This document shows, one piece after another, positions 1,411-15,100 of a stretch of DNA of 15,100 nt. The stretch comes from Willaertia magna (lineage: Eukaryota > Heterolobosea > Eutetramitea > Acrasida > Naegleriidae). Below the pieces are notes generated by a model. That model saw only the letters and a list, made by a program, of their open reading frames with translations, did no database searches and had not been told where the DNA came from. The position numbers and the translations under genes were made by a program. The number at the start of each line of letters is the position of its first letter. Positions within the stretch are counted from its first letter, which is position 1. Location of the stretch: positions 1 to 15,100 of the forward strand of contig CADWAF010000370.1 of the NCBI GenBank assembly GCA_902984215.1, in the 5' to 3' direction.

Positions 1411-3558
1411 ATGAGTTCCACCATCTCTTCAGAAGAGATTATTGTTCCTGAATCACTTCATCATCAACCGTCTTCTTCCAATAATAATGGTGATGGAACT
1501 ATTGCAAATATCAATAATCAACTACAACAACAACAACAAGATGGGAATAATAATGATATAACAAGATTATCTTCTTCCGCACAACAACAATTATTGATAT
1601 CAAGTGATACCAATAATTTATTATCAACTACCATTAATAGTAATAGTAATAATAATAGTACCACTACCATTATTAATAATAATAATAATAATAGTACAGG
1701 TAAAGATCATACTTGTTGTGGTTGTAATAATCAACAACAAGAAGTAGATATGGAAGAAATGTTTAATAATGCCTTTAGAGATCAATTTTATAATACAACA
1801 CCCACTCCTACAACTACATCTTCTTCTATTACTACTAATAATAATCATTTAAATAATAATACAACAACAACAACAACTACTACTACTTCACCAATTACAG
1901 TTGTTTCAACTCCATTAGGATTACCAATAAGTAATAATAATTTAAATACAACAAATAATAATTTAAATGGTCATTTAGTAAATAATACAACAACAACTAC
2001 TACTAGTGCGCATATAAATAATAATAATTTAATGGAAAGTTTATTTTATAATTCAAATAATAATTTACATTCACAACAATTATTACAACAATTACAACAA
2101 GATAATAATCAATTAATAATACAACAACAACAACAAGACTATTTTACAAATCATGATTTAAATCAACAACATTCTCAATTTTTATATCAAACATTTTATA
2201 ATAATAATCCAAATTATCATCATCATCATCTTGAAGAAGAAGAAGAAGAAGAAGAAGAATTAGATGATAATCAACAACAAGATGATGAATTACAATTAAC
2301 TGCAGTAGAATTAGCTAAATTAAAATCATTACCTAATAATAATAATGGAAATCAATTAAATAATAGAAAAGTAAAGAGAGGTAGAAAGATTAAATATAAA
2401 GATAGTGTATGTTTAGAATGTGAAGAATTAGGATGTGATTCTAAAGGAGGTATTTGGTGTTATGATTTAGATCATCATAAAAATAAAAAGAGAGCACCTA
2501 AATATGTTAATTGTGATGAATGTCATAAATTAGTTAGTGGACCTAAATATACTAGACATTTAAATAAATGTAATACTATAGATGGTATTATAGATATACA
2601 TTCACAACAACAATTAAATGGATCTATTAGTAATTCACATCATCAATTAATGAATAATCAATTAATGTTACAACAACAACAACAATCATTAATGAGTAAT
2701 AGTGGTGTTAATAATAATCAACAACAGTTATTGACAAGTGGATTACATAATCAATATCATTTAGATAATAATAATAATATAATGATGAATATACCTACAA
2801 TATTAATACCTAATAATAATAATATATTAAATAATAATAATCAACAACAACAACAACCATTATCACCTAATCATTTATCACCACTTTCACCAAATAGTCA
2901 TCATCCGGTTATTTTTAGAACTAGTCCAACAAATACAATAACTATTGTAAATAATTCTAATAATTTAAATAATAATACACGTACATGTTGTTCACCTACT
3001 GTAGTTGTAACATCACCTATTAACCAATCACATATTAATCAATTACCTATTATTACTACTACAAATAGTAATAATAATAATAATACTTTAAATACTTTAC
3101 AACAACAACAGGGATATACTAAATTATTATTAACAAATAATAATAATAATAATATAACAACAACAACAAGTGTACATCAACAACAACAACATCCATTATC
3201 ACCACATCATTTACATCCAACATCACCTCATTCTCCACATTCACATTGTTCTTCTAATGATAATAGTTATTATGGTAATTTACAACAACAACAACAACAA
3301 CATACAGTATTAGATAATAATATAATATATCATCATCATTCACCTAATAATAATAATAATTATTATCATTCATTACATATAAATGATTTAACTAATCATT
3401 ATAATGAATTAAATAATTATGGTAATAATAATCCACCAATTATAGTACATGCACATCAATTAGTTACAACACAACCATTAAATAATCAACAACAACAACA
3501 ACAACCTTTAAATAATCAAAATAATAAAAAGGTATTATTTAAATCCTTCATTAATTGA
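1411..3558 (+). CDS. Asn/Gln-rich protein with a Sgf11-like C2HC zinc finger
   Basis: This is a 715-residue intronless frame, starting in the context AAAAAAAATG and ending with TGA. Most of it is low-complexity Asn, Gln, Thr and His-Pro-Ser sequence, with an E9 run. The one ordered-looking part is residues 318-390. It has a basic stretch (RKVKRGRKIKYK, a possible nuclear signal) and then Cys334-x2-Cys337-x4-Cys342-x7-Cys350. Next comes Cys368-x2-Cys371-x11-His383-x3-Cys387. The last motif (CDECHKLVSGPKYTRHLNKC) has the spacing and the HLxKC ending of the Sgf11/ataxin-7-like-3 finger, which in the SAGA deubiquitinase module contacts nucleosomes. A nuclear, transcription-related role is inferred. 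The preceding four-Cys cluster is not part of the Sgf11 family as I know it. Other C2HC fingers are possible. The last 43 bp overlap the huntingtin frame on the other strand. Confidence 0.75.
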   Translation: MSSTISSEEIIVPESLHHQPSSSNNNGDGTIANINNQLQQQQQDGNNNDITRLSSSAQQQLLISSDTNNLLSTTINSNSNNNSTTTIINNNNNNSTGKDHTCCGCNNQQQEVDMEEMFNNAFRDQFYNTTPTPTTTSSSITTNNNHLNNNTTTTTTTTTSPITVVSTPLGLPISNNNLNTTNNNLNGHLVNNTTTTTTSAHINNNNLMESLFYNSNNNLHSQQLLQQLQQDNNQLIIQQQQQDYFTNHDLNQQHSQFLYQTFYNNNPNYHHHHLEEEEEEEEELDDNQQQDDELQLTAVELAKLKSLPNNNNGNQLNNRKVKRGRKIKYKDSVCLECEELGCDSKGGIWCYDLDHHKNKKRAPKYVNCDECHKLVSGPKYTRHLNKCNTIDGIIDIHSQQQLNGSISNSHHQLMNNQLMLQQQQQSLMSNSGVNNNQQQLLTSGLHNQYHLDNNNNIMMNIPTILIPNNNNILNNNNQQQQQPLSPNHLSPLSPNSHHPVIFRTSPTNTITIVNNSNNLNNNTRTCCSPTVVVTSPINQSHINQLPIITTTNSNNNNNTLNTLQQQQGYTKLLLTNNNNNNITTTTSVHQQQQHPLSPHHLHPTSPHSPHSHCSSNDNSYYGNLQQQQQQHTVLDNNIIYHHHSPNNNNNYYHSLHINDLTNHYNELNNYGNNNPPIIVHAHQLVTTQPLNNQQQQQQPLNNQNNKKVLFKSFIN
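2233..2259 (+). repeat. (GAA)9 microsatellite encoding Glu9
   Basis: Nine consecutive GAA codons follow a short CAT (His) run. They give an abrupt acidic block about 60 residues before the Cys-rich cluster of the zinc-finger protein. Confidence 0.9.
3283..3300 (+). repeat. (CAA)6 run, longest Gln tract of this gene
   Basis: Six CAA codons encode Gln6. Shorter CAA runs recur through the gene (for example near 1526-1540, 2121-2136, 2669-2685, 2842-2856 and 3487-3503). The tracts are pure CAA, so they are length-mutable, but all are short. Confidence 0.85.
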
Positions 3559-6500
3559 GATAATATTTGATTTTTAAATAAATTTAAAGTATCCAACATA
3601 TTCTTTTCCTTTAAATAATCACTAAACATTAAACCATACATTAAAAAAGCATGTGAAGTAAAACTATTCCAATTATTAATTGAATGATTTGAACCAAAAT
3701 AAATTAATAAAGGATAATGATGTGTATATTCACCTACAACAACAGAAATAAATAAACATAATAAAGCCCATAATGCACCCATCATTGGTTGTTTCATTGA
3801 TAATGTTTGTAAACTTATTTGAATCCAATTCTCATATTCTTTAATATTTTTATAAATATGTGGCATATGTATAGATAATAATAAACTTAATAATAATGGA
3901 TGTGTTTTACTACTTAAATATTCATTATAAATTAAAGGTAATATTTGTTCACTTTCAAAGAAATCTTCCATTAATTGTGGAATAAATCTTAATAATAATT
4001 CACCTTCTCTATCAATTTCACCATCATGAAATTGTTCAATTAAATGTAAAATATTTACTTTAGCTCTTTCTCTTTCTAATGATGTTACACTGTTGTTGTT
4101 ATTAATTGTTGTAATGGATGATGTATACATTGATGTAATCATTAATCCTAATAGTAATACTCTTCTAGCAGATGATGTAGATAATAAATTACTTGTTGTT
4201 GTTGTTGCAGTAATATTATTATTGACACTACTGGATGATATAGATGTATTGTTATTAGTATTGTTATTTGCAGTACTTGTCTTTTGTTGAATATTATTAT
4301 TATTACTGTTACTATTAGAAGTGGTATTATTTGTAGTGGTTGGTGTTGGTGTAGTTTTCTTTGTTGTAAATAAACTCATAAACTTCTTCATTGTAGTTGC
4401 CGTTGTCGTTGCAATTGAAGATGTTCCACTACTACTACTACTTGTACCACCACTACCACTGCTGCTATTATTTCCACTTGTTGATGATGAACCAGTAGTA
4501 CTAGTTGTATTAGTTGCAACAGTTGTTGTAGGTTTTGAATTGCTTGTTGAAGTATTGTTATTATTACTATTTGATTTAAAAAATTCCATATTAAATGCAG
4601 CAGTTGGTTTTTTAATTAATAACAATGCTCTATTTTGTGCTAACATGGAAGTAAATGAAGTAAATGTAGAAATATCAATATTCATCTTTTTTAAAAACTT
4701 TTCTCCTCCTGTACCATTATTATTATTATTAGCATTATTAGCACTACTACCTGTATGATTATGATTATTATTATTAGAATTATTACTAATTATAGTAAAT
4801 GGAGGGGTAGTATCTTGTTGTTTAATACTTGTCATAATTTCAATTAAATTTCTTTCCAATTGTGATAAAGAATAATTCATTAATAATGTTTGTAATGTTT
4901 TAAATAAGGAAATAATAATATAAATAGGAGTATTCATATCATCTAATAAATTAAATAAACATTCCATTATTTTTTTAGTTAATTGATGTACTGATGCTTC
5001 TGGAAATTTCATTACAATAATTGTAATCATTTTCATTAATAATAATTGGTGTGTAACTGTTTGTTCTTTATCTAATAACCATATTTGTATATTATTTGAT
5101 ATAAATGGTAATAATTTTACAATAATTTCTCTATTTTTATAATTATCAATTAAATTTAAAATACTTTTATATCCAAATAATTTTAAATGATTATTATTTA
5201 ATGATGTTTCTAACATTTTAATAAAATAATCAATATTTTCTATATTTGTAAAATTAATATTAGTTTTAGTAATACCATATATAGTATATCTTTGTAATAA
5301 ATAATCATCTGATAAAATACTATCTTTATATAAATTTTTAAATAAATCATTTAACCATTGTAAAGTATATTGATTTGATTTTAAATAACATTGTTGATTA
5401 AATTCTAAAATTATAATTAATGATTTAATCATTTCTTTTGTAATCATCATATTACTATGTAAATATTTTTGTAAAGAATCTTCTATAAATAGTATATAAC
5501 TATCAAATAAAGCAGATGCATATGTTTCTTCAATTTCTATTTTTAAATTATTATTATTTTTATTATTATTGTAATCTTTATTAATCATTAAATAATGTTG
5601 AATAATTGTTAATAAATTTGTCCATGAATTTGTATTTTCTAAATTATCTAAACTTTCCAAATTAGTAAAATTATTATTATTGTTATTCATTAAAGATAAT
5701 AAACAAGTAATACATTTAATTAATTGAATTTGAATTTCATCAAATTGATTCATTGTTAATTCTGATTTTAATAAATCAAATAATAAATTAAAAATATTTT
5801 TAAAAACATATTCATTACAAGAAATATTTTTAATCATTATTATTAATATATTAATTTGTTCAATATCTATTCTTGGAAAATAATCTTCTTTTGGAATAAA
5901 TATTTCATAAGATAAATAAATATAATTTTTAGCAATTTCAATTCCAATTTTTCTAATTAATTTTAAATGATGATAAGATATATATGGTATATTATTTCCT
6001 ATAGTAAATCCATAATAGGAAAGTCCGTTATTGTTACTATTTTTAGCATTATTGTTGGTAATGGATGATTTAAAGGTTTTGGAGATGATTAATTTTTTTA
6101 ATTCCATTTTTGTTAAATTGGATTCTATATATGGTATTACACTGGTTGCATCAAAAATAAATTGACATGTTAAATCAATCATTTCTTCAATCACATGTTT
6201 TAAATTGTCAACACTAGTGTTGTCAATGCTATTATTGTCACCTTTATTATTGTGATCACCCATGTCAATTAAATTTCCATTTTTAGGAGTATCATCATTT
6301 ACTAATAAAGTATATAATTGTAAAACATGACAAGTTAAAGATAAAATACAATCAACATCCATTAATTCAACATAATTTTCATTTAATCTATTTTTATAAA
6401 ATAATTTAATAAAATCTGTTGTAAAATTAATAATTTTAATAAAATGATTTTTTAATAAATATTTTGATTTAATAATTAATTTTGTAATTAAAATTGATAA

Positions 6501-9500
6501 TTTTAAATAATAATTAAAATTATCATTAATTAAAATTAAATTATTTAATTCTTGATTCATATATTCTATAATTGGTAATAATTGATTATTATTTAAATGT
6601 ACTAAAATAGAAATAATAAAATCAATATCATTATTTTTAATTAAAATTGAAATTGACTTTTCACTCATATTAGATACTATATTTGGAATATATTTTAAAT
6701 TTGTTTTATATTTCATAAAATAGTCAATAATTAAATTTTCATTATTTACTTTCATTTCCTTATTTAAATTTAATAAATAATTATTATTATTACTATTTAT
6801 AGAATTATTATTACTTTCTTTATTTATATAAATTTGAATATCTTTTAAAATTTTCTTTTTCATAAATGTATTTTCTTTTTTAAGTCTTTCATTAATTAAA
6901 TTATTTAAATTTTCTTTAAAATTATTATTAAAATTTTTAAATTCTTTAATAAATTTAAATAAATTTCTTAAATCAATAATATCTAATTTAGTATTATTTT
7001 TAATTAATAATTCTTCTAATTCTAAAAATAGATTATCATAATTACCATTATAAGAATGAATAAATTGTTTTATAATTTCATATTCATTAAAATATTTAAT
7101 TATATATTTCCAAATTTTATTTGAGATATTTAAATTAAAAGTTTTTAAATTAAAAAATTCAATTAATTTTAAAAATAAAACTTGTTGTAAAATAATATAA
7201 TTATGTAATTCTAAATTTGTAAAATCTTTTAAATTTAAATGGAAATAATTATTTAATTTATTAAAAATATTTTCTAAATTTAAATTTTCTTTATTTAAAT
7301 TAATTATAATATTTAATAATTTATTATAAATTTCATAATTAAAATATTTAAATGTATAATTATTTAATAATTCAATTAATTCATTATTTATTAAATTATT
7401 TATTTTATTTAAATTATTTAAATTATTATTTCCAATTAAATTATTTTGATAATTTAATAAATTATTTAATAAATAAATAATTAATTTTTCATTTCTATTT
7501 TTATTTTTTAAAATAAAATTTATACTTTTAATTAATAATAATTCATAAATAGTATTATCAAATATTTTAAATTTACTAATTATAGTAATATCAATTAATA
7601 ATTGATAAATTGTTGTAACTTTTTGTAAATTATAAATTATTTTATTTTTCTCAAAAGTTGTTAAATTTAATGATCCTTTTAATTGTTGAATTAAATCTAA
7701 TAAATTAAAGAATTCTTCATCTTGTCTTTCCTTTTCTTCTAATGTTATTGTCATGTCTTCAATTATTTCATTTTCATCATTATTAACACTATCAACTATA
7801 TGATTACTATCATTATTATTTACTACATTATTATCTTGTTTATTATCTTGTTGATTCATGTCATTGTCATCAAATACTAACAATACTTGTTCATTCATCA
7901 TCTTCTTATTGTCACCACTATTATTATTGCTGTCAACATTATTGTCATTAATAACAGTATTGACACTATTGTCAGTAGTAGTAATTGAATGATCAGTGTA
8001 GTGATGATATGGAAAGTTCATTAAATGATTTAAAATTTCTAATGAAATATTTTCTTTAATTTCTTGGTTGTCTTTATAATAAAAAATTAAATTAATAAAA
8101 CTTTTTGGACATTTATATAAATTATTTAAATAATAATTATAAATTTCTTTATTTAATAAATATCCTCTAATCATTATTGATGAAATTAAATTAAATTCAT
8201 TTCTTTTTAAAAATAAATTAATTAAATCAAAAATATTATTTTCTACATTTGTTTCATCACTTTCCATAATATTATCAAATTGATTATATTTAATTATATA
8301 AATTAATATTGAAATAAAATCAATTAAAATTTCAAAATAATTATTATCATCATTATTATTATTTAATAATAAATATTCATTTAATTGTTTTAAAATATTT
8401 TTAATAAAAGATTTATCTTTATCTAATTGTGTAAAATCAATTCCTATACAAATCATTCTAATTAACATTTTAATAATTAAATATTTTAATTTATTATCAT
8501 GTGAATATTTAAATGTTTTCATTAAAGTTATAACCATTGGATTAAACATTATTAAAATATTTTTGTACGTTTTATTTGTATTTCCAAATTTAGAATCAAA
8601 ATTTTGTTGAAATAATAAATTATTTATTTTAATATTATTATTTATATTATCTATATTTGTAATTGGTAAATATTTATCTTTTTTACCAAATAAAGAAATA
8701 AATAAACTTTGAATACATAAAATTGTATATTTTTTTTCAAATAAAATAAAATAATTTAAATTTTGAATTAAATCTATTGTAACATTTTCAATACATTTAA
8801 AATTACCATTTAATAATAAATGATATAAAATTTTTAATAAATATTTTCTAATTATAGAAATATAATCATTATTACTATTTTTAAAAATAAATGATTTAGA
8901 TGTTGTTGTAATATGATTAATTAATTTATCATGTATATATTTATTCATATTTATTTCTATATTAGTATTATTATTTAAATAAATATTTCTAATTAAAGTA
9001 ATCATTGGCATTAAATAATCATTTAATAAAATTGTTGTAATCATTTCAATTTTATTTAAATTTAAAAATTTTAAAAAATGAATATAAATAGAAATAGTTT
9101 TTAAAATACTACTATGTATAGATAAATCAATTGAAAATAATTCAAATTTTAATTTATCTAATAATAATTCAATAATTTCAATACTATAATAGGAAATAAT
9201 AGAATTATTTTTATATAATTTACCTAATTTATATAATAATTGAATAGTACCTAAAAAGGAATGTTTATCTTCTAAATGATTTAATTGATTAATTGATTTT
9301 TTTAAAATAAATAAAATATTTTTATTTTCTATATTTAAAATATCTTCTTTTAAAATTAAATAATTAATTAATTTTAATTCATATAAATTTGAATATCTTT
9401 CTAAATCTGTAATTTCTATAATTGGATATTTTAATAAAGAAATGAACGTATCAATCGTTTGATTTCTAACCATTTCATTATCATCACTTAAAAATCTCCA

Positions 9501-11315
9501 AATCACGTGATCTAATAAAATTTGTAACGTTCTTTTACGTTCATAAAATTCAATAACATTAAAATTTAAAGATTTAATTAAATTTAAAATTTCAATTTTT
9601 ACTCCAAAAAAACTATCATTTAAAGTAATTATACTAATTAAGTAATTACTACATTTATCTTTTAATAAATGTATATATTTAGATAAAAAATAAATACATG
9701 AAGTTATCATCATTTTTAAACAAATATGATCTGTTTCTTTAAATAGAATATACATATATTTATCTATATATTCTATATTTGTTGTAATATTATTAGTATC
9801 TATATTTAGTAAATGTCCAAATAAAATAGCAGCATTTCCTCTAATAAATACATCTTCTTCTAATGGATAAATAAATGTATTAAAAATATATTCAATTGTA
9901 AAATTATTTTCTAAAAATATTTTATTTGATATATTTGGAAATAAAATTATAATTTGTTGTAATAATTCTAAAATAGATCCTTTTATAGTAATTAATTTAT
10001 TTATATTTAAAATATTTAATAAAGATTTAACTAATTGAATAACTTTATCTTTTAACCAATAAACTTTACAATATTTATTAAATTTATTTAATTTAAATAA
10101 ATTATTTAATAATTCTATAGATGGTGATAATATTTTTTGATCATTATAATTATTTAAACTATTTATAGTAATATCAAATATAATATTTGTAAATTCAATA
10201 ATATTATTATTTAAATTATTATTTAATAAAATAAAATTAAATGTAATTAAAATTGATTGTAATAATTTAATATCTTCTAAATTTAATTTATTATATAATT
10301 CTATACATATTTGGAATATTGGACATTGTAAAACATATTTACAACAAATTCCAATAATTTTACTTGTAAATCTTCTAATCTCTTGATCTTGATGATTTAA
10401 TAATTTAAATAATTCTAAAATTAAATAATTATAAATCTCTTCCTTATTTATATATTTTCCTAAAATAATAAATATTTTATCTAAATTAATACTTAAATTC
10501 TCTAAAATTTCATAATTTTGAATTTCAATAAAATTTTTAATTTGAGGTAAAATAAAACTAATCATTGTTTTACATTTTTGTGGTTTTATATATTTAGATA
10601 TTTCACTAAAATTATTTAATGAACTAATTATAGAATAAATATTATTTTCATTTAATTTCATTGATTTAAATAAAATTACTAAAATTTTATCAGAATGTGT
10701 TTCAATTAAACATTTTATAATTTTATTTAAATGTTCATTTGAAATCATTCTTACATCTTGATTATTATCACCACACGTTTTTAAACATAATGTAATACTT
10801 ATATTTAAAATATTTGTAACTTGTTTAAAATATACTTCATATTGTTGTTGTTGTTGATTATTATTATTTAAAAAAAATATTGAATTATTATTAGAATTTG
10901 TATTATTAGAATTTATTATGGTTGTTGTTGTTGTATTTGTATTATTATTAATTGTTGTTGTTGTTGTATTTGAGAAGGAAGGGTTCATGGAAGATAAAGT
11001 ATAAGAAAGATGATAATAATAAAATTGTATAAAATAGTCAGAGATATTTGTTAAACAAGTTTGTATTTGTTTTTTACGTTCTTGTTCGTTGGGACATTGT
11101 ATTGTTTTTTCTATAATTTTTTTTAAATGATCTATATTACTTTGGATATCTACACTTGAGATTGTTATTGTTGTTGTTGTGGATGGAGATGATGATGAAT
11201 TGGTATTGTTGTTCACTTGAAGAGATTGTTGATTACCCGAAGCGTTGTTGTTATTGCTGTTGTTGAGCTTCAAAGAGGGTGAAAAACTCATTTTTTTTTT
11301 GGGTGAAAAACTCAT
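3516..11315 (-). CDS. htt: Huntingtin homologue (HEAT-repeat scaffold protein)
   Basis: This is a 2,599-codon uninterrupted minus-strand frame ending in TGA. Huntingtin is a large HEAT-repeat scaffold for vesicle transport, autophagy and centrosome/spindle work. Residues 160-250 carry the hallmark start of the N-HEAT domain: DVRM (187-190), a HLNKIIKCL helix and KPQKC (244-248). The animal protein has DVRM, ECLNKVIKAL and RPQKC in the same order. The C-terminus also matches: LGLMITSMYTS (2389-2399; animal LGLMLTCMYTG), FIPQLMEDFF (2444-2453; animal ILPQFLDDFF) and ALWALLCLFISV (2514-2525; animal ATWSLSCFFVSA). The chain is shorter than human (about 3,140). It lacks the N17-polyQ-Pro head and has Asn-rich loops at about 110-158, 1102-1198, 1681-1709 and 2165-2382. 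The start could be codon 1 or codon 9, because the start region is duplicated. Animal motifs are recalled from memory. Confidence 0.92.
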   Translation of the reverse strand: MSFSPKKKMSFSPSLKLNNSNNNNASGNQQSLQVNNNTNSSSSPSTTTTITISSVDIQSNIDHLKKIIEKTIQCPNEQERKKQIQTCLTNISDYFIQFYYYHLSYTLSSMNPSFSNTTTTTINNNTNTTTTTIINSNNTNSNNNSIFFLNNNNQQQQQYEVYFKQVTNILNISITLCLKTCGDNNQDVRMISNEHLNKIIKCLIETHSDKILVILFKSMKLNENNIYSIISSLNNFSEISKYIKPQKCKTMISFILPQIKNFIEIQNYEILENLSINLDKIFIILGKYINKEEIYNYLILELFKLLNHQDQEIRRFTSKIIGICCKYVLQCPIFQICIELYNKLNLEDIKLLQSILITFNFILLNNNLNNNIIEFTNIIFDITINSLNNYNDQKILSPSIELLNNLFKLNKFNKYCKVYWLKDKVIQLVKSLLNILNINKLITIKGSILELLQQIIILFPNISNKIFLENNFTIEYIFNTFIYPLEEDVFIRGNAAILFGHLLNIDTNNITTNIEYIDKYMYILFKETDHICLKMMITSCIYFLSKYIHLLKDKCSNYLISIITLNDSFFGVKIEILNLIKSLNFNVIEFYERKRTLQILLDHVIWRFLSDDNEMVRNQTIDTFISLLKYPIIEITDLERYSNLYELKLINYLILKEDILNIENKNILFILKKSINQLNHLEDKHSFLGTIQLLYKLGKLYKNNSIISYYSIEIIELLLDKLKFELFSIDLSIHSSILKTISIYIHFLKFLNLNKIEMITTILLNDYLMPMITLIRNIYLNNNTNIEINMNKYIHDKLINHITTTSKSFIFKNSNNDYISIIRKYLLKILYHLLLNGNFKCIENVTIDLIQNLNYFILFEKKYTILCIQSLFISLFGKKDKYLPITNIDNINNNIKINNLLFQQNFDSKFGNTNKTYKNILIMFNPMVITLMKTFKYSHDNKLKYLIIKMLIRMICIGIDFTQLDKDKSFIKNILKQLNEYLLLNNNNDDNNYFEILIDFISILIYIIKYNQFDNIMESDETNVENNIFDLINLFLKRNEFNLISSIMIRGYLLNKEIYNYYLNNLYKCPKSFINLIFYYKDNQEIKENISLEILNHLMNFPYHHYTDHSITTTDNSVNTVINDNNVDSNNNSGDNKKMMNEQVLLVFDDNDMNQQDNKQDNNVVNNNDSNHIVDSVNNDENEIIEDMTITLEEKERQDEEFFNLLDLIQQLKGSLNLTTFEKNKIIYNLQKVTTIYQLLIDITIISKFKIFDNTIYELLLIKSINFILKNKNRNEKLIIYLLNNLLNYQNNLIGNNNLNNLNKINNLINNELIELLNNYTFKYFNYEIYNKLLNIIINLNKENLNLENIFNKLNNYFHLNLKDFTNLELHNYIILQQVLFLKLIEFFNLKTFNLNISNKIWKYIIKYFNEYEIIKQFIHSYNGNYDNLFLELEELLIKNNTKLDIIDLRNLFKFIKEFKNFNNNFKENLNNLINERLKKENTFMKKKILKDIQIYINKESNNNSINSNNNNYLLNLNKEMKVNNENLIIDYFMKYKTNLKYIPNIVSNMSEKSISILIKNNDIDFIISILVHLNNNQLLPIIEYMNQELNNLILINDNFNYYLKLSILITKLIIKSKYLLKNHFIKIINFTTDFIKLFYKNRLNENYVELMDVDCILSLTCHVLQLYTLLVNDDTPKNGNLIDMGDHNNKGDNNSIDNTSVDNLKHVIEEMIDLTCQFIFDATSVIPYIESNLTKMELKKLIISKTFKSSITNNNAKNSNNNGLSYYGFTIGNNIPYISYHHLKLIRKIGIEIAKNYIYLSYEIFIPKEDYFPRIDIEQINILIIMIKNISCNEYVFKNIFNLLFDLLKSELTMNQFDEIQIQLIKCITCLLSLMNNNNNNFTNLESLDNLENTNSWTNLLTIIQHYLMINKDYNNNKNNNNLKIEIEETYASALFDSYILFIEDSLQKYLHSNMMITKEMIKSLIIILEFNQQCYLKSNQYTLQWLNDLFKNLYKDSILSDDYLLQRYTIYGITKTNINFTNIENIDYFIKMLETSLNNNHLKLFGYKSILNLIDNYKNREIIVKLLPFISNNIQIWLLDKEQTVTHQLLLMKMITIIVMKFPEASVHQLTKKIMECLFNLLDDMNTPIYIIISLFKTLQTLLMNYSLSQLERNLIEIMTSIKQQDTTPPFTIISNNSNNNNHNHTGSSANNANNNNNGTGGEKFLKKMNIDISTFTSFTSMLAQNRALLLIKKPTAAFNMEFFKSNSNNNNTSTSNSKPTTTVATNTTSTTGSSSTSGNNSSSGSGGTSSSSSGTSSIATTTATTMKKFMSLFTTKKTTPTPTTTNNTTSNSNSNNNNIQQKTSTANNNTNNNTSISSSSVNNNITATTTTSNLLSTSSARRVLLLGLMITSMYTSSITTINNNNSVTSLERERAKVNILHLIEQFHDGEIDREGELLLRFIPQLMEDFFESEQILPLIYNEYLSSKTHPLLLSLLLSIHMPHIYKNIKEYENWIQISLQTLSMKQPMMGALWALLCLFISVVVGEYTHHYPLLIYFGSNHSINNWNSFTSHAFLMYGLMFSDYLKEKNMLDTLNLFKNQILSQLMKDLNNTFLLF
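3577..3582 (+). promoter_or_regulatory. Polyadenylation signal of the zinc-finger gene, inside huntingtin coding DNA
   Basis: AATAAA lies 19 nt after the TGA stop at 3556-3558, within the C-terminal coding part of the opposing huntingtin gene. If used, the 3' UTR of the plus-strand mRNA is antisense to huntingtin codons. No TTTATT (minus-strand AATAAA) is visible just below 3516, so the huntingtin 3' end must use a variant signal or lie deeper in the neighbour. Confidence 0.45.
4170..4825 (-). other. Low-complexity insertion in the huntingtin C-HEAT domain
   Basis: About 215 residues (roughly 2165-2382) of Asn, Ser, Thr and Gly interrupt the C-terminal HEAT domain. They lie between LFKTLQTLLMN...LSQLERNLIEI and the conserved LGLMITSMYTS, where the animal protein has only a short link. 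A less repetitive hydrophobic stretch (MNIDISTFTSFTSMLAQNRA at about 2204-2223 and onward to NMEFF) sits inside it. The frame stays open throughout, and no GT..AG pair is needed to keep it open. It is probably a disordered loop rather than an unspliced intron. Confidence 0.6.
10842..10856 (-). repeat. (CAA)5 run: the only Gln tract near the huntingtin N-terminus
   Basis: Five CAA codons (TTG on the plus strand) encode Gln154-158, after an Asn run and directly before the first conserved HEAT helix. The place differs from the residue-18 polyglutamine of vertebrate huntingtin. Confidence 0.9.
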
Positions 11316-11324
11316 TTTTTTTTT
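11277..11324 (-). repeat. 24-bp exact tandem duplication of the huntingtin start region
   Basis: The units 11277-11300 and 11301-11324 are identical. On the minus strand each unit is ten A's, then ATGAGTTTTTCACC, then C. Because 24 bp is eight codons, both ATGs (11313-11315 and 11289-11291) are in frame and have the same A-rich context, giving MSFSPKKK-MSFSP. Either can serve as start. A one-unit slippage would add or remove a start without harming the protein. Confidence 0.95.
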
Positions 11325-11699
11325 AAAAATAATATTTTTTTAATTTTTAATTTTTTTTAAAAAGACGGGGACTATGCGGGAATGCGAGGTGCTTCAACCA
11401 AACTTGAAGGAAAAATTCTAGCAAAAAGATTTGAACTAGACTTGCAAATCATTGACCTAGTATATAGAAAATCAATTTAAAAAGGCTGTTTTATGGTTTA
11501 CTTTTATCTTTTATTATTATCATACAAAAAACATTATGAAATTTCTTTGCTTTAGTACTAGCTGTTGGCAAGTTTCATTTTAGCTTCGAATTCAACCTTG
11601 TCATTACTCAACGACAATCAAGTTTTCACTATAAATTAGTTAACGTTTATCTAATACCATTTCAAGCTTAACATATTTCAAAAAAATACAAAAACAATA
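11316..11699. promoter_or_regulatory. Divergent intergenic region between huntingtin and the secreted-protein gene
   Basis: This 384-bp region holds no gene that I can support. Next to huntingtin it is T/A-rich, then comes a GC-richer block (about 11361-11460). That block carries an inverted repeat, CTTCAA (11392-11397) and TTGAAG (11404-11409) with a 6-nt spacer. TATATA at 11461-11466 could serve huntingtin (about 146 bp from its ATG). TATAAAT at 11630-11636 lies 64 bp before the ATG at 11700. It must contain the promoters of both genes; the individual elements are inferred. Confidence 0.5.
11630..11636 (+). promoter_or_regulatory. Candidate TATA box of the secreted-protein gene
   Basis: TATAAAT stands 64 bp upstream of the start codon in otherwise mixed sequence. 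Distance and match fit a TATA element with a short A-rich leader. AT-rich DNA gives such matches by chance, so the call is tentative. Confidence 0.35.
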
Positions 11700-12670: not shown

Positions 12671-12967
12671 ATGTCTACTAATAACGATGACCCTAGCACT
12701 ACAAATCCACCAGTTAATAATAATAATTGGAGACATGAATTTAATAGAGATAGACGTACAGAAATCTTTAAAGCAGTGTTTTTATCCTTGAAACAACATC
12801 CAACTTATCAATCATGGGATGAAAGAAAATTACAAATTTATTCATTGGATAAAGTGTGTGCCTTTTGGAAAAGAGCAACTAGTAAAGAAGAATTTTTAAG
12901 CTTAGTGGATGATTTAAAAATCAATGGTGGCTCAACTCCCCAATTTTTTAAAGGGATTAATAAATAA
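12671..12967 (+). CDS. Small protein that is essentially one KIX-like domain
   Basis: This is a 98-residue protein. An in-frame TAA directly before the ATG (12668-12670) fixes the start. After a short Asn/Ser/Thr leader, residues 20-85 read NWRHEFNRDRRTEIFKAVFL, then two more helices (about 50-69 and 71-83). This is the pattern of the KIX domain of Mediator subunit Med15 (W-R followed by an R-x2-I-x3-I helix, an aromatic-containing second helix and a SKEEFLSLV third helix). KIX domains are three-helix bundles that bind activation domains of transcription factors. Med15 proteins are long, whereas this one ends after the domain with TAA and AATAAA motifs. It may therefore be a free-standing paralogue or decoy. 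I see no splice donor that would extend it. The family call is by eye. Confidence 0.7.
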   Translation: MSTNNDDPSTTNPPVNNNNWRHEFNRDRRTEIFKAVFLSLKQHPTYQSWDERKLQIYSLDKVCAFWKRATSKEEFLSLVDDLKINGGSTPQFFKGINK

Positions 12968-13189: not shown

Positions 13190-14231
13190 ATGTCAGTTCA
13201 AAAGCTAAGAGATTTGTTTGATGACGAATTATTAATTATTTTTTCTTTTTTAAAAGTTCCTGAAGAAATTAATTTCTTAATAATGTCACTAAAAAGTAAA
13301 CGAATTTACAAAATTCTAATTAGTGATTATATTTGGGAATATTTTGTAAAAAGTAAAAATCAATTTCTTTTTGAAAAGTATAAAATATCATTTTATTCTG
13401 AAAATAATTATAGAAATTCCTTTTTACAATTTTATAAACAAATAAATGATATGACAATTGACAATATAAAAAAAAGAGAACTTTTTGTAAATAATTTTGA
13501 ATTATACCTTCCAGAAAAACAAATTTCTTTTTTTGACCTACATAAATTAGATAAAGAAGAAGTAAAAACAGTAAAAACAACACTGAACACATGTAAAGTT
13601 GTTATAATTGGAGATGGAGGTGTTGGAAAAACAAGTTTTTTGTACAGACTTTGCCGTAACTCTTTTGAAGAAGATTACTATTATGGATATTTTGAAAATC
13701 CTTGTTATTTTTTTAGTCGTGACAACAATTCATCATATGCCTCTTTATGGGATACTGCAGGACAAGAGGTAAGTTTAAATTTTAACTAACAGTTAGTTAA
13801 AAAAACAATGTTTTTTTTGTGTTGGAGAAAAGGAGTATGACAGACTTAGACCATTGTCTTATCCTGATACCAATTTATTTATTATTTGTTATTCTATTGA
13901 TACAGTTGACTCTTTTAAAAATGTTTTAAATAAGTGGGTTGTAGAAATTCACAATTACATTAAAAATCCAAATTACATTTTAGTTGGTTGTAAAACTGAT
14001 TTGAGAAACGATAAAGAAATTTTACAAAATTGTTTTTATAAAGATAAAGAAAAGGTATTAAGTGAAGAAGAAGGAATAATGTTGGCCAAGAAAATAAAAG
14101 CAATTACCTATTTGGAATGTAGTTCAAAAAAGGGAGATGGTTTTGTAGCATTTAGGGACAGATTTGAAAAACTTTTAACACTTGTATTGGAGAGGCCAGA
14201 ATCCAAAAAGAAAATTTGTGAAATAATGTAA
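13190..14231 (+). CDS. F-box-like / Rho-type GTPase fusion protein with CaaX box
   Basis: Two exons (13190-13768 and 13833-14231) joined in phase 0 give 325 residues. Residues 6-52 look like an F-box (LRDLFDDELLIIFSFLKVPE, then LKSKRIYKILISDYIWEYF); F-boxes bind Skp1 in SCF ubiquitin ligases. A linker follows, then a full small GTPase at 135-325. It has the P-loop GDGGVGKTS (141-149), FEEDYYYGYFENP switch I (159-171), WDTAGQE (187-193) joined across the splice to EYDRLRPLSYPDT, CKTD for base recognition (246-249) and ECSSK (288-292). The extra helix at about 251-272 is the Rho insert, so this is Rho rather than Ras or Rab. It ends KKKICEIM, a basic stretch plus a CaaX box, predicting prenylation. 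Gly166 replaces the switch I Thr. RhoBTB proteins join Rho with a BTB ubiquitin adaptor; this fusion has a different partner in the opposite order. Confidence 0.87.
13769..13832 (+). other. 64-nt GT..AG spliceosomal intron in the F-box-Rho gene
   Basis: The donor is GTAAGT after the GAG codon of DTAGQE; the acceptor is AAAAG before GAG TAT GAC. Unspliced, the frame meets a TAA at 13787-13789. Spliced, it reads DTAGQE-EYDRLRP, which is the exact Rho-family sequence at this place. A pyrimidine-poor acceptor and CTAAC at 13784-13788 (a possible branch site) are visible. It is the only intron I can support in the window. Confidence 0.92.
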
Positions 14232-14632: not shown

Positions 14633-15100
14633 ATGTTACAAGATCAACAACAACAACAAGAAAATAATGAACTTGATCTATCTTGTCCCATTAGTAAAGA
14701 TTTATTAGAAGATCCAATTGTAGTACCATGTTGTGGAAGAGCATTTTCTAGACAATCTTTATTAGATTATTTTTCTTTTCATAATGAAAATTTTAATGAA
14801 AATTCAGATGAAAATTTCAATGAAAGATCATGTCCTTGTTGTAGAGGAACTTTAACAAACTTTAATATAGAACAAGCTCCCAAAAATGTAAATTTATCTT
14901 CTCTTGTGGAAACCTTTAAACTACAAGTAATTCCACCACAAACAGTTCAACAAACAGTTCAAAAAGAAAAAGAAGAAGAAAATAAAGCAATTTTTAAGGC
15001 AGAAGTAGAACATTTAATAAATGTAGATGATGTAGATATTGGCGTTGCAGAAATGAAAATTATGGTTGATGATTCCACATTAAATCCAAAACCAACTTTA
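14633..15100 (+). CDS. U-box domain protein, 5' part (runs off the window)
   Basis: The start is in the context AAAATG and 156 codons stay open to the window end. After a short Gln5 leader, residues 16-95 form a U-box: LSCPISKDLLEDPIVVPCCG (16-35), then RAFSRQSLLDYF, SCPCCRGTL (66-74) and PKNVNLSSLVETF (83-95). U-boxes are the zinc-free relatives of RING fingers that recruit ubiquitin-conjugating enzymes. Here the second ligand Cys of a RING is Ser21 and the 'CGHxFC' positions are CGRAFS, so zinc binding is not expected. A Glu/Asn/Asp-rich insertion of about 15 residues (50-64) widens the middle of the domain. After it come a Gln/Lys/Glu-rich stretch (103-118) and the start of an acidic region. 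The remaining domains, which would tell the substrate, are outside the window. Confidence 0.8.
   Translation, partial: MLQDQQQQQENNELDLSCPISKDLLEDPIVVPCCGRAFSRQSLLDYFSFHNENFNENSDENFNERSCPCCRGTLTNFNIEQAPKNVNLSSLVETFKLQVIPPQTVQQTVQKEKEEENKAIFKAEVEHLINVDDVDIGVAEMKIMVDDSTLNPKPTL

Follow-up and report, generated by a model that had tools for sequence, protein, structure and literature searches.

An N-terminal F-box-like segment fused to an atypical Rho GTPase with a CaaX end in Willaertia magna

The window analyzed here, a 15,100-nucleotide stretch from the start of contig CADWAF010000370.1 of the Willaertia magna assembly GCA_902984215.1, carries near its right end a two-exon gene whose spliced product of 325 amino acids has an F-box-like segment at the N terminus, a Rho-type GTPase domain behind it and the C-terminus CEIM (Table 1). 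Farther upstream, on the opposite strand, lies a single open frame of some 2,607 codons with a huntingtin match (Htt_N-HEAT_1, E 2e-33; Htt_C-HEAT, E 3e-6, barely above cut-off), which its sequence marks as a huntingtin-like gene, here in a heterolobosean. The small gene directly upstream of the fusion gene gives a weak KIX-like match (PF16987, E 0.2, under cut-off). The next gene downstream, which runs off the window, opens with a cysteine segment resembling a RING/U-box (zf-Nse, 24.8 bits; zf-RING_UBOX, 20.2 bits; both under cut-off) and possibly encodes an E3 ligase adjoining the F-box gene. The first 107 codons of the fusion gene recur at the left end of contig C758 (stretch 1-2500): over 300 bp there is no DNA mismatch and by 330 bp there is one, after which the upstream DNA differs. 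This partial copy stems either from a recent duplication or from a join made in assembly.

Table 1. Features of the F-box–Rho gene and of its neighbors in the window (positions are those of the window)
Feature	Positions	Strand	Basis
Huntingtin-like gene, single frame	3516-11339	-	Pfam matches
Small upstream gene, weak KIX-like match	12671-12967	+	PF16987, under cut-off
F-box–Rho gene, start ATG at 13190	13190-14231	+	coordinates checked
Exon 1, single open frame, 193 codons	13190-13768	+
Putative divergent F-box, residues 1-62	13190..13375	+	lineage profile (match to residues 4-62) and shuffles, weak PF12937, purifying selection
Linker, residues 63-135, partly helical, fast-evolving vs C344	13376..13594	+	dN/dS, model
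Rho GTPase domain, exon 1 part, residues 136-193	13595..13768	+	sequence alignment
P-loop GDGGVGKT	13610-13633	+
Switch I Gly166 codon	13685-13687	+
Intron, 64 bp, GT-AG	13769..13832	+	same place in C285 and C344; joined in paralogue public models
Rho GTPase domain, exon 2 part, residues 194-305	13833..14168	+	alignment; splice test
G4 CKTD	13989-14000	+
Rho insert	about 14007-14057	+	aligned to RhoA insert
G5 ECSSK	in exon 2 part of Rho domain	+
Tail with KKK and CaaX CEIM (14217-14228), stop 14229-14231	14169..14231	+
Next downstream gene, RING/U-box-like start	14633-15100 (running off the window)	+	zf-Nse, zf-RING_UBOX, under cut-off

The frame of exon 1 spans the F-box-like segment, the linker and the P-loop and continues through DTAGQE. 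Eight AG acceptors were tried for the intron, and three are in frame with no internal stop: 13832, which makes the junction read WDTAGQE|EYDRLRPLSYPD, the Rho consensus; 13835, which gives a product one E shorter; and 13796, which leaves a 28-bp intron and adds 12 odd residues. At the identical position the paralogues on contigs C285 and C344 are interrupted by introns of 46 bp and 91 bp, and the order of F-box segment then GTPase is kept at three loci of the assembly. Exons corresponding to the two of the window are joined in the public W. magna models P0003 and P0004, and also in P0006, from which another piece is missing. The start of the C285 paralogue (about 500-640) contains a tandem double over roughly 100 bp, present as one copy in the P0003 model. 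The public model of the window gene itself, P0005 (ABK040_011790, 199 aa, 99% identity over exon 1), and the paralogue model P0010 run into the intron and then stop, which lends something to a reading in which the gene model is false or covers two genes, with the first 130 codons, or exon 2, outside the Rho protein; the disagreement of the annotation concerns exon 2, not the F-box part. Against this reading stand the retained order at the three loci and the joined exons of P0003 and P0004, and we give it almost no credence. Its two-gene form is ruled out by the shared frame of the F-box segment and the P-loop: because 13190-13768 is one frame, the first 130 codons do not form a gene of their own, barring a start farther downstream. 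The F-box-like segment and the Rho domain are a real single-gene fusion, and the exon joining proposed in the initial annotation agrees with the single frame, the short intron and the paralogue introns in the same place.

The window protein matches the Ras family in Pfam with an E-value of 7e-37, and among solved structures the nearest in sequence are RhoA and Rho1, followed by Cdc42 and Rac. Its G domain is nearest to Rho/Rac/Cdc42, and the fold of the model of the paralogue P0003 agrees (Foldseek, VIA-align). The Rho insert is present between G4 and G5, and the CKTD form of G4 is found in one of 32 plain Rho rows, selected from a homologue search, most of which have CK.D forms. The CaaX ends of the family are CEIM in the window protein, P0003 and P0004 and CKVM in P0006, and the W. 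magna genome has 1 Prenyltrans match. The assignment to Rho, with insert and CaaX box, is confirmed by these results. The domain had also been called complete, which does not hold: at the position of RhoA Thr37 there is Gly in P0003, P0005 (same letters as the window) and P0006 and Tyr in P0004, so that the switch-I threonine, present in all 32 plain Rho rows compared, is missing from the window protein and from three other family members. Gln63 and Gly14 (RhoA numbering) are kept in the window family. Loss of the switch-I threonine would weaken effector and magnesium coupling and leave nucleotide binding in place. With this threonine absent, and the Gln kept, we regard the window protein as an atypical Rho, and an atypical module in the manner of RhoBTB is more probable than a normal switch.

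The N-terminal segment is well below what general profiles recognize. The Pfam F-box gives no match in the whole 325-residue protein up to E 10, a Pfam search with residues 1-130 returns no F-box match, and a PDB sequence search with residues 1-130 returns nothing up to E 10; PF12937 against residues 1-55 alone reaches E 0.15 and 12.3 bits, with a cut-off of 24.3. A lineage profile was built from 44 W. magna F-boxes, drawn from at least 84 F-box matches in the genome, and a second profile combined these 44 with six F-boxes of the clear F-box–Rho relatives described below as group A (50 in total). Shuffled N termini of four family members (window, P0003, P0004 and P0006) served as controls, 9,994 or 9,993 of them scored. 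Against the 44-F-box profile, residues 4-62 of the window protein score 16.3 bits, a score that 0 of 9,994 shuffles reach; the scores of P0006, P0003 and P0004 are reached by 0, 1 and 9 of 9,994, respectively. With the 50-F-box profile the scores are 14.6 bits (window), 18.0 (P0003), 17.7 (P0006) and 16.2 (P0004), and all four members lie above every one of the 9,993 scored shuffles. The hhalign probabilities are 84% and 88% for the two profiles. Built from the six group A regions alone, a profile fails to set the window protein apart: its 6.1 bits are reached by 94 of 9,994 shuffles, the counts being 10 for P0003, 10 for P0006 and 44 for P0004, and hhalign against this profile gives 16%. The F-box that had been proposed for this segment is in this way absent at the Pfam threshold and recovered with the lineage profiles.

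Consensus positions that the segment has in common with F-boxes include Leu9, Asp12, Ile17, Phe20, Leu21, Lys37 and Trp49. The window family is without the Pro of the LP motif, which is present in 22 of the 44 W. magna F-boxes, and without the Trp or Phe at residue 39, which is present in 38 of the 44, and it has a short insertion in the segment; Skp1 binding could therefore be lost. The dN/dS values, which rest on few synonymous sites, are about 0.25 against C285 (53 codons, codons 1-9 excluded) and 0.16 against C344 (61 codons) for residues 1-62, 0.27 and 0.37 for the GTPase, and 0.48 and 2.0 for the linker. Residues 1-62 are under purifying selection and, on these few sites, at least as constrained as the GTPase. 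A structure model of P0003 predicted from 42 rows has a mean pLDDT of 74 (a first prediction from five rows, mean pLDDT 35, was set aside), with GTPase blocks mostly at 87-97 and some stretches at 57-68. Its N terminus, in blocks of pLDDT 54-75, has helices at 11-20, 26-35, 37-44 and 47-63, which fit the places of F-box helices. The matches listed for this model by Foldseek and VIA-align (50 each) are all GTPases or GTPase fusions. As judged from its sequence, the segment of residues 1-62 looks like a constrained, divergent F-box with putative Skp1 binding.

Relatives of residues 1-132 turned up in W. magna only, with five matches in four genes among 68 candidates. A sixth W. magna F-box–GTPase, on contig C375 and spanning an intron, is when joined the same as ABK040_012760 (P0123) over the searched region, and as a query it gave 26 matches, 6 with an F-box and 20 without in the precomputed domains. 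The six make up group A: P0123 of W. magna, P0124 (C9374_000127) of Naegleria lovaniensis, the environmental proteins P0125, P0128 and P0130, and P0129 of EukProt. In all six the F-box and the Ras match are both above the Pfam cut-offs, and the C-terminal ends are CaaX-like (CIIG, CIIQ, CGIA, CGIS, CKFM and CTVN). The environmental protein P0130, ending in CTVN, is a single predicted protein with a 2OG-Fe(II) oxygenase, an F-box and a Rho GTPase. Like the window family, group A has an F-box, a linker, a Rho-type GTPase and a CaaX-like end; unlike the window protein, its members have a clear F-box, a long N terminus and, in five of six, a KKSPWSKDDY-like linker. The switch residues also differ from those of the window family: the switch-I Thr is retained in 6/6, and the catalytic Gln is replaced in four of the five models that include the region (Ser, Ser, Ser, Thr; P0129 is without it) and kept in P0130. 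The proposal that such a receptor is controlled by nucleotide state is, in that form, not supported by either set, the window family being without the switch-I Thr and four of five clear relatives having Ser or Thr for the catalytic Gln. The suggested search for the same order in other genomes was productive, since F-box–Rho–CaaX recurs in W. magna, N. lovaniensis, environmental and EukProt proteins.

A tree of 33 GTPase domains, in which group A is represented by five of its six members and from which one of 12 Rho rows was dropped as its motif is missing, places the window family in one clade (100/100) beside RhoA/Rho1-type rows (90/91) and four group A proteins in another (100/96), with P0130 elsewhere; the tree contains several long branches. 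A single clade uniting the window family with group A survives the test (p-AU 0.199), as does one that also takes in five other F-box GTPases (p-AU 0.144).

In at least five open frames of the W. magna assembly (19.24 Mb, 894 contigs), those of C708, C681, C644, C745 and C311, an F-box match accompanies a Ras match; both domains are over cut-off in all five, and the C745 frame stops before the end of the GTPase. Contigs C255, C20, C598 and C792 hold apparent further F-box GTPases, with introns, frame changes or weak GTPase parts. The proteins of C681, C644, C311, C20 and C255 start with MGQ, which we take to be myristoylation-like, and some of these starts are followed by cysteines, resembling lipid-modified N termini; no CaaX is found at the C-terminal ends of C681, C644 and C311. 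Matches to Skp1 and cullin in the genome number 3 and 7 (one of the latter partial), respectively, and a Skp1 match lies on contig C294. Another combination of a Rho-like GTPase with ubiquitin-ligase domains is P0143 of EukProt, in which BTB, U-box and Ras are precomputed together.

The combination of an F-box with a small GTPase is already known from TbFRP and F-box–ARF proteins, and the family of the window protein was not found in the literature searched. TbFRP of Euglenozoa is a FYVE–F-box–Ras-like GTPase; as in the window protein, the F-box is ahead of a C-terminal small GTPase and the protein is directed to membranes, but the membrane is bound through FYVE and the GTPase is, per the paper, closest to Rab18 (PMC3593210). 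The authors of that paper did not find a TbFRP orthologue in N. gruberi (PMC3593210). Membership of the FRP group is ruled out for the window protein, which has no FYVE match in Pfam. The F-box–ARF proteins resemble it in joining an F-box to a Ras-superfamily GTPase in a lineage-specific way and differ in having an ARF-family domain, not Rho (PMC8358228). RhoBTB proteins likewise combine a Rho domain with a cullin-adaptor domain under atypical regulation, and RhoBTB3 has a CaaX; unlike the window protein, they have two BTB domains after the GTPase and serve cullin-3, not Skp1/cullin-1 (PMC4931677). RhoBTB is an example of a Rho domain at work in a cullin ligase under the control of its partners (PMC4931677). 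The window protein has no BTB match in Pfam and ends at the CaaX, which rules out RhoBTB membership and bears out the earlier view that the architecture differs from RhoBTB. FBXL2 is an F-box protein held on membranes by a prenylated C-terminal CaaX (CVIL), as proposed here, with leucine-rich repeats in place of the GTPase (PMC9141697).

In the main texts of the literature searched no description of an F-box–Rho protein was found. In the Naegleria fowleri genome paper, Ras-superfamily proteins were searched for domains with SMART, Pfam and CDD (PMC8296547). For its small-GTPase supplement that paper refers to references 27 and 65-79, which include F-box, BTB and RhoBTB reviews (PMC8296547); such proteins, for instance a group A member from Naegleria, may already be described in the supplement. 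The initial annotation knew of no described F-box–Rho architecture; that holds for the main texts found, and is narrowed by the published F-box proteins with other Ras-superfamily GTPases (PMC3593210, PMC8358228).

The explanation we favor, with a probability of roughly one half, is that the gene encodes an atypical Rho that begins with a divergent F-box and carries a prenylation motif, the F-box segment docking Skp1, the ligase held on a membrane and the Rho domain binding a partner or substrate. The F-box segment would dock the Skp1 of a cullin-1 ubiquitin ligase, and the CEIM tail, judging from the motif and its conservation, would be prenylated and hold the ligase on the membrane. The Rho domain would be the partner- or substrate-binding part; it probably binds nucleotide and would signal unlike RhoA because its switch I is without threonine. 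Activity may depend on partner binding and self-ubiquitination, not on exchange factors and GAPs, as proposed for RhoBTB.

How far the segment still acts as an F-box is where the main alternatives diverge. It may descend from an F-box and have lost Skp1 binding, leaving an atypical prenylated Rho whose helical N terminus serves autoinhibition or partner binding. A score under the Pfam cut-off, the missing LP Pro and Trp/Phe39 together with the short insertion, and a group A profile that does not pick the segment out all point this way; since the Pro is also absent from half of the W. magna F-boxes (22 of 44), and since residues 1-62 have dN/dS values (about 0.25 and 0.16, on few sites) no higher than those of the GTPase (0.27 and 0.37), we consider this rather unlikely, though the most serious of the alternatives. 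A chance likeness, in which a lineage-specific helical extension has no kinship with F-boxes, would account for the lack of anything above threshold in the Pfam and PDB searches and for the restriction of the segment's kin to W. magna. It is very improbable given that 0 of 9,994 shuffles reach the window score and that F-box–GTPase fusions of the same order exist elsewhere in the W. magna genome. A working F-box might instead destroy its own protein, making a short-lived, membrane-bound Rho regulated by its level rather than by its nucleotide state. There are precedents in the rapid turnover of TbFRP, tied to its F-box by the authors (PMC3593210), and in RhoBTB, thought to be inactivated through auto-ubiquitination (PMC4931677); this reading also requires a working F-box, which is putative here, and we find it improbable, less so than a chance likeness.

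Beyond this gene, we entertain as a tentative and on balance doubtful generalization that Heterolobosea have several lineages of membrane-anchored SCF receptors in which small GTPases with altered switches sense or bind substrate: two CaaX-ending F-box–Rho lineages, in which the switch-I Thr or the catalytic Gln is lost, and a third group with the MGQ start, together a repeatedly evolved cullin-1 counterpart of RhoBTB. Should the F-box of the window family be functional, these proteins would act as ubiquitin-ligase receptors anchored to membranes through the Rho tail that they carry, and would be to Skp1/cullin-1 what the RhoBTB proteins are to cullin-3. Their altered switch residues open to experiment the question of whether a GTPase domain can serve a ubiquitin ligase without normal GTP cycling. 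Since at least two genera have clear F-box–Rho proteins and W. magna has F-box–GTPases of several kinds, the coupling of small GTPases to ubiquitin ligases may be widespread in Heterolobosea.
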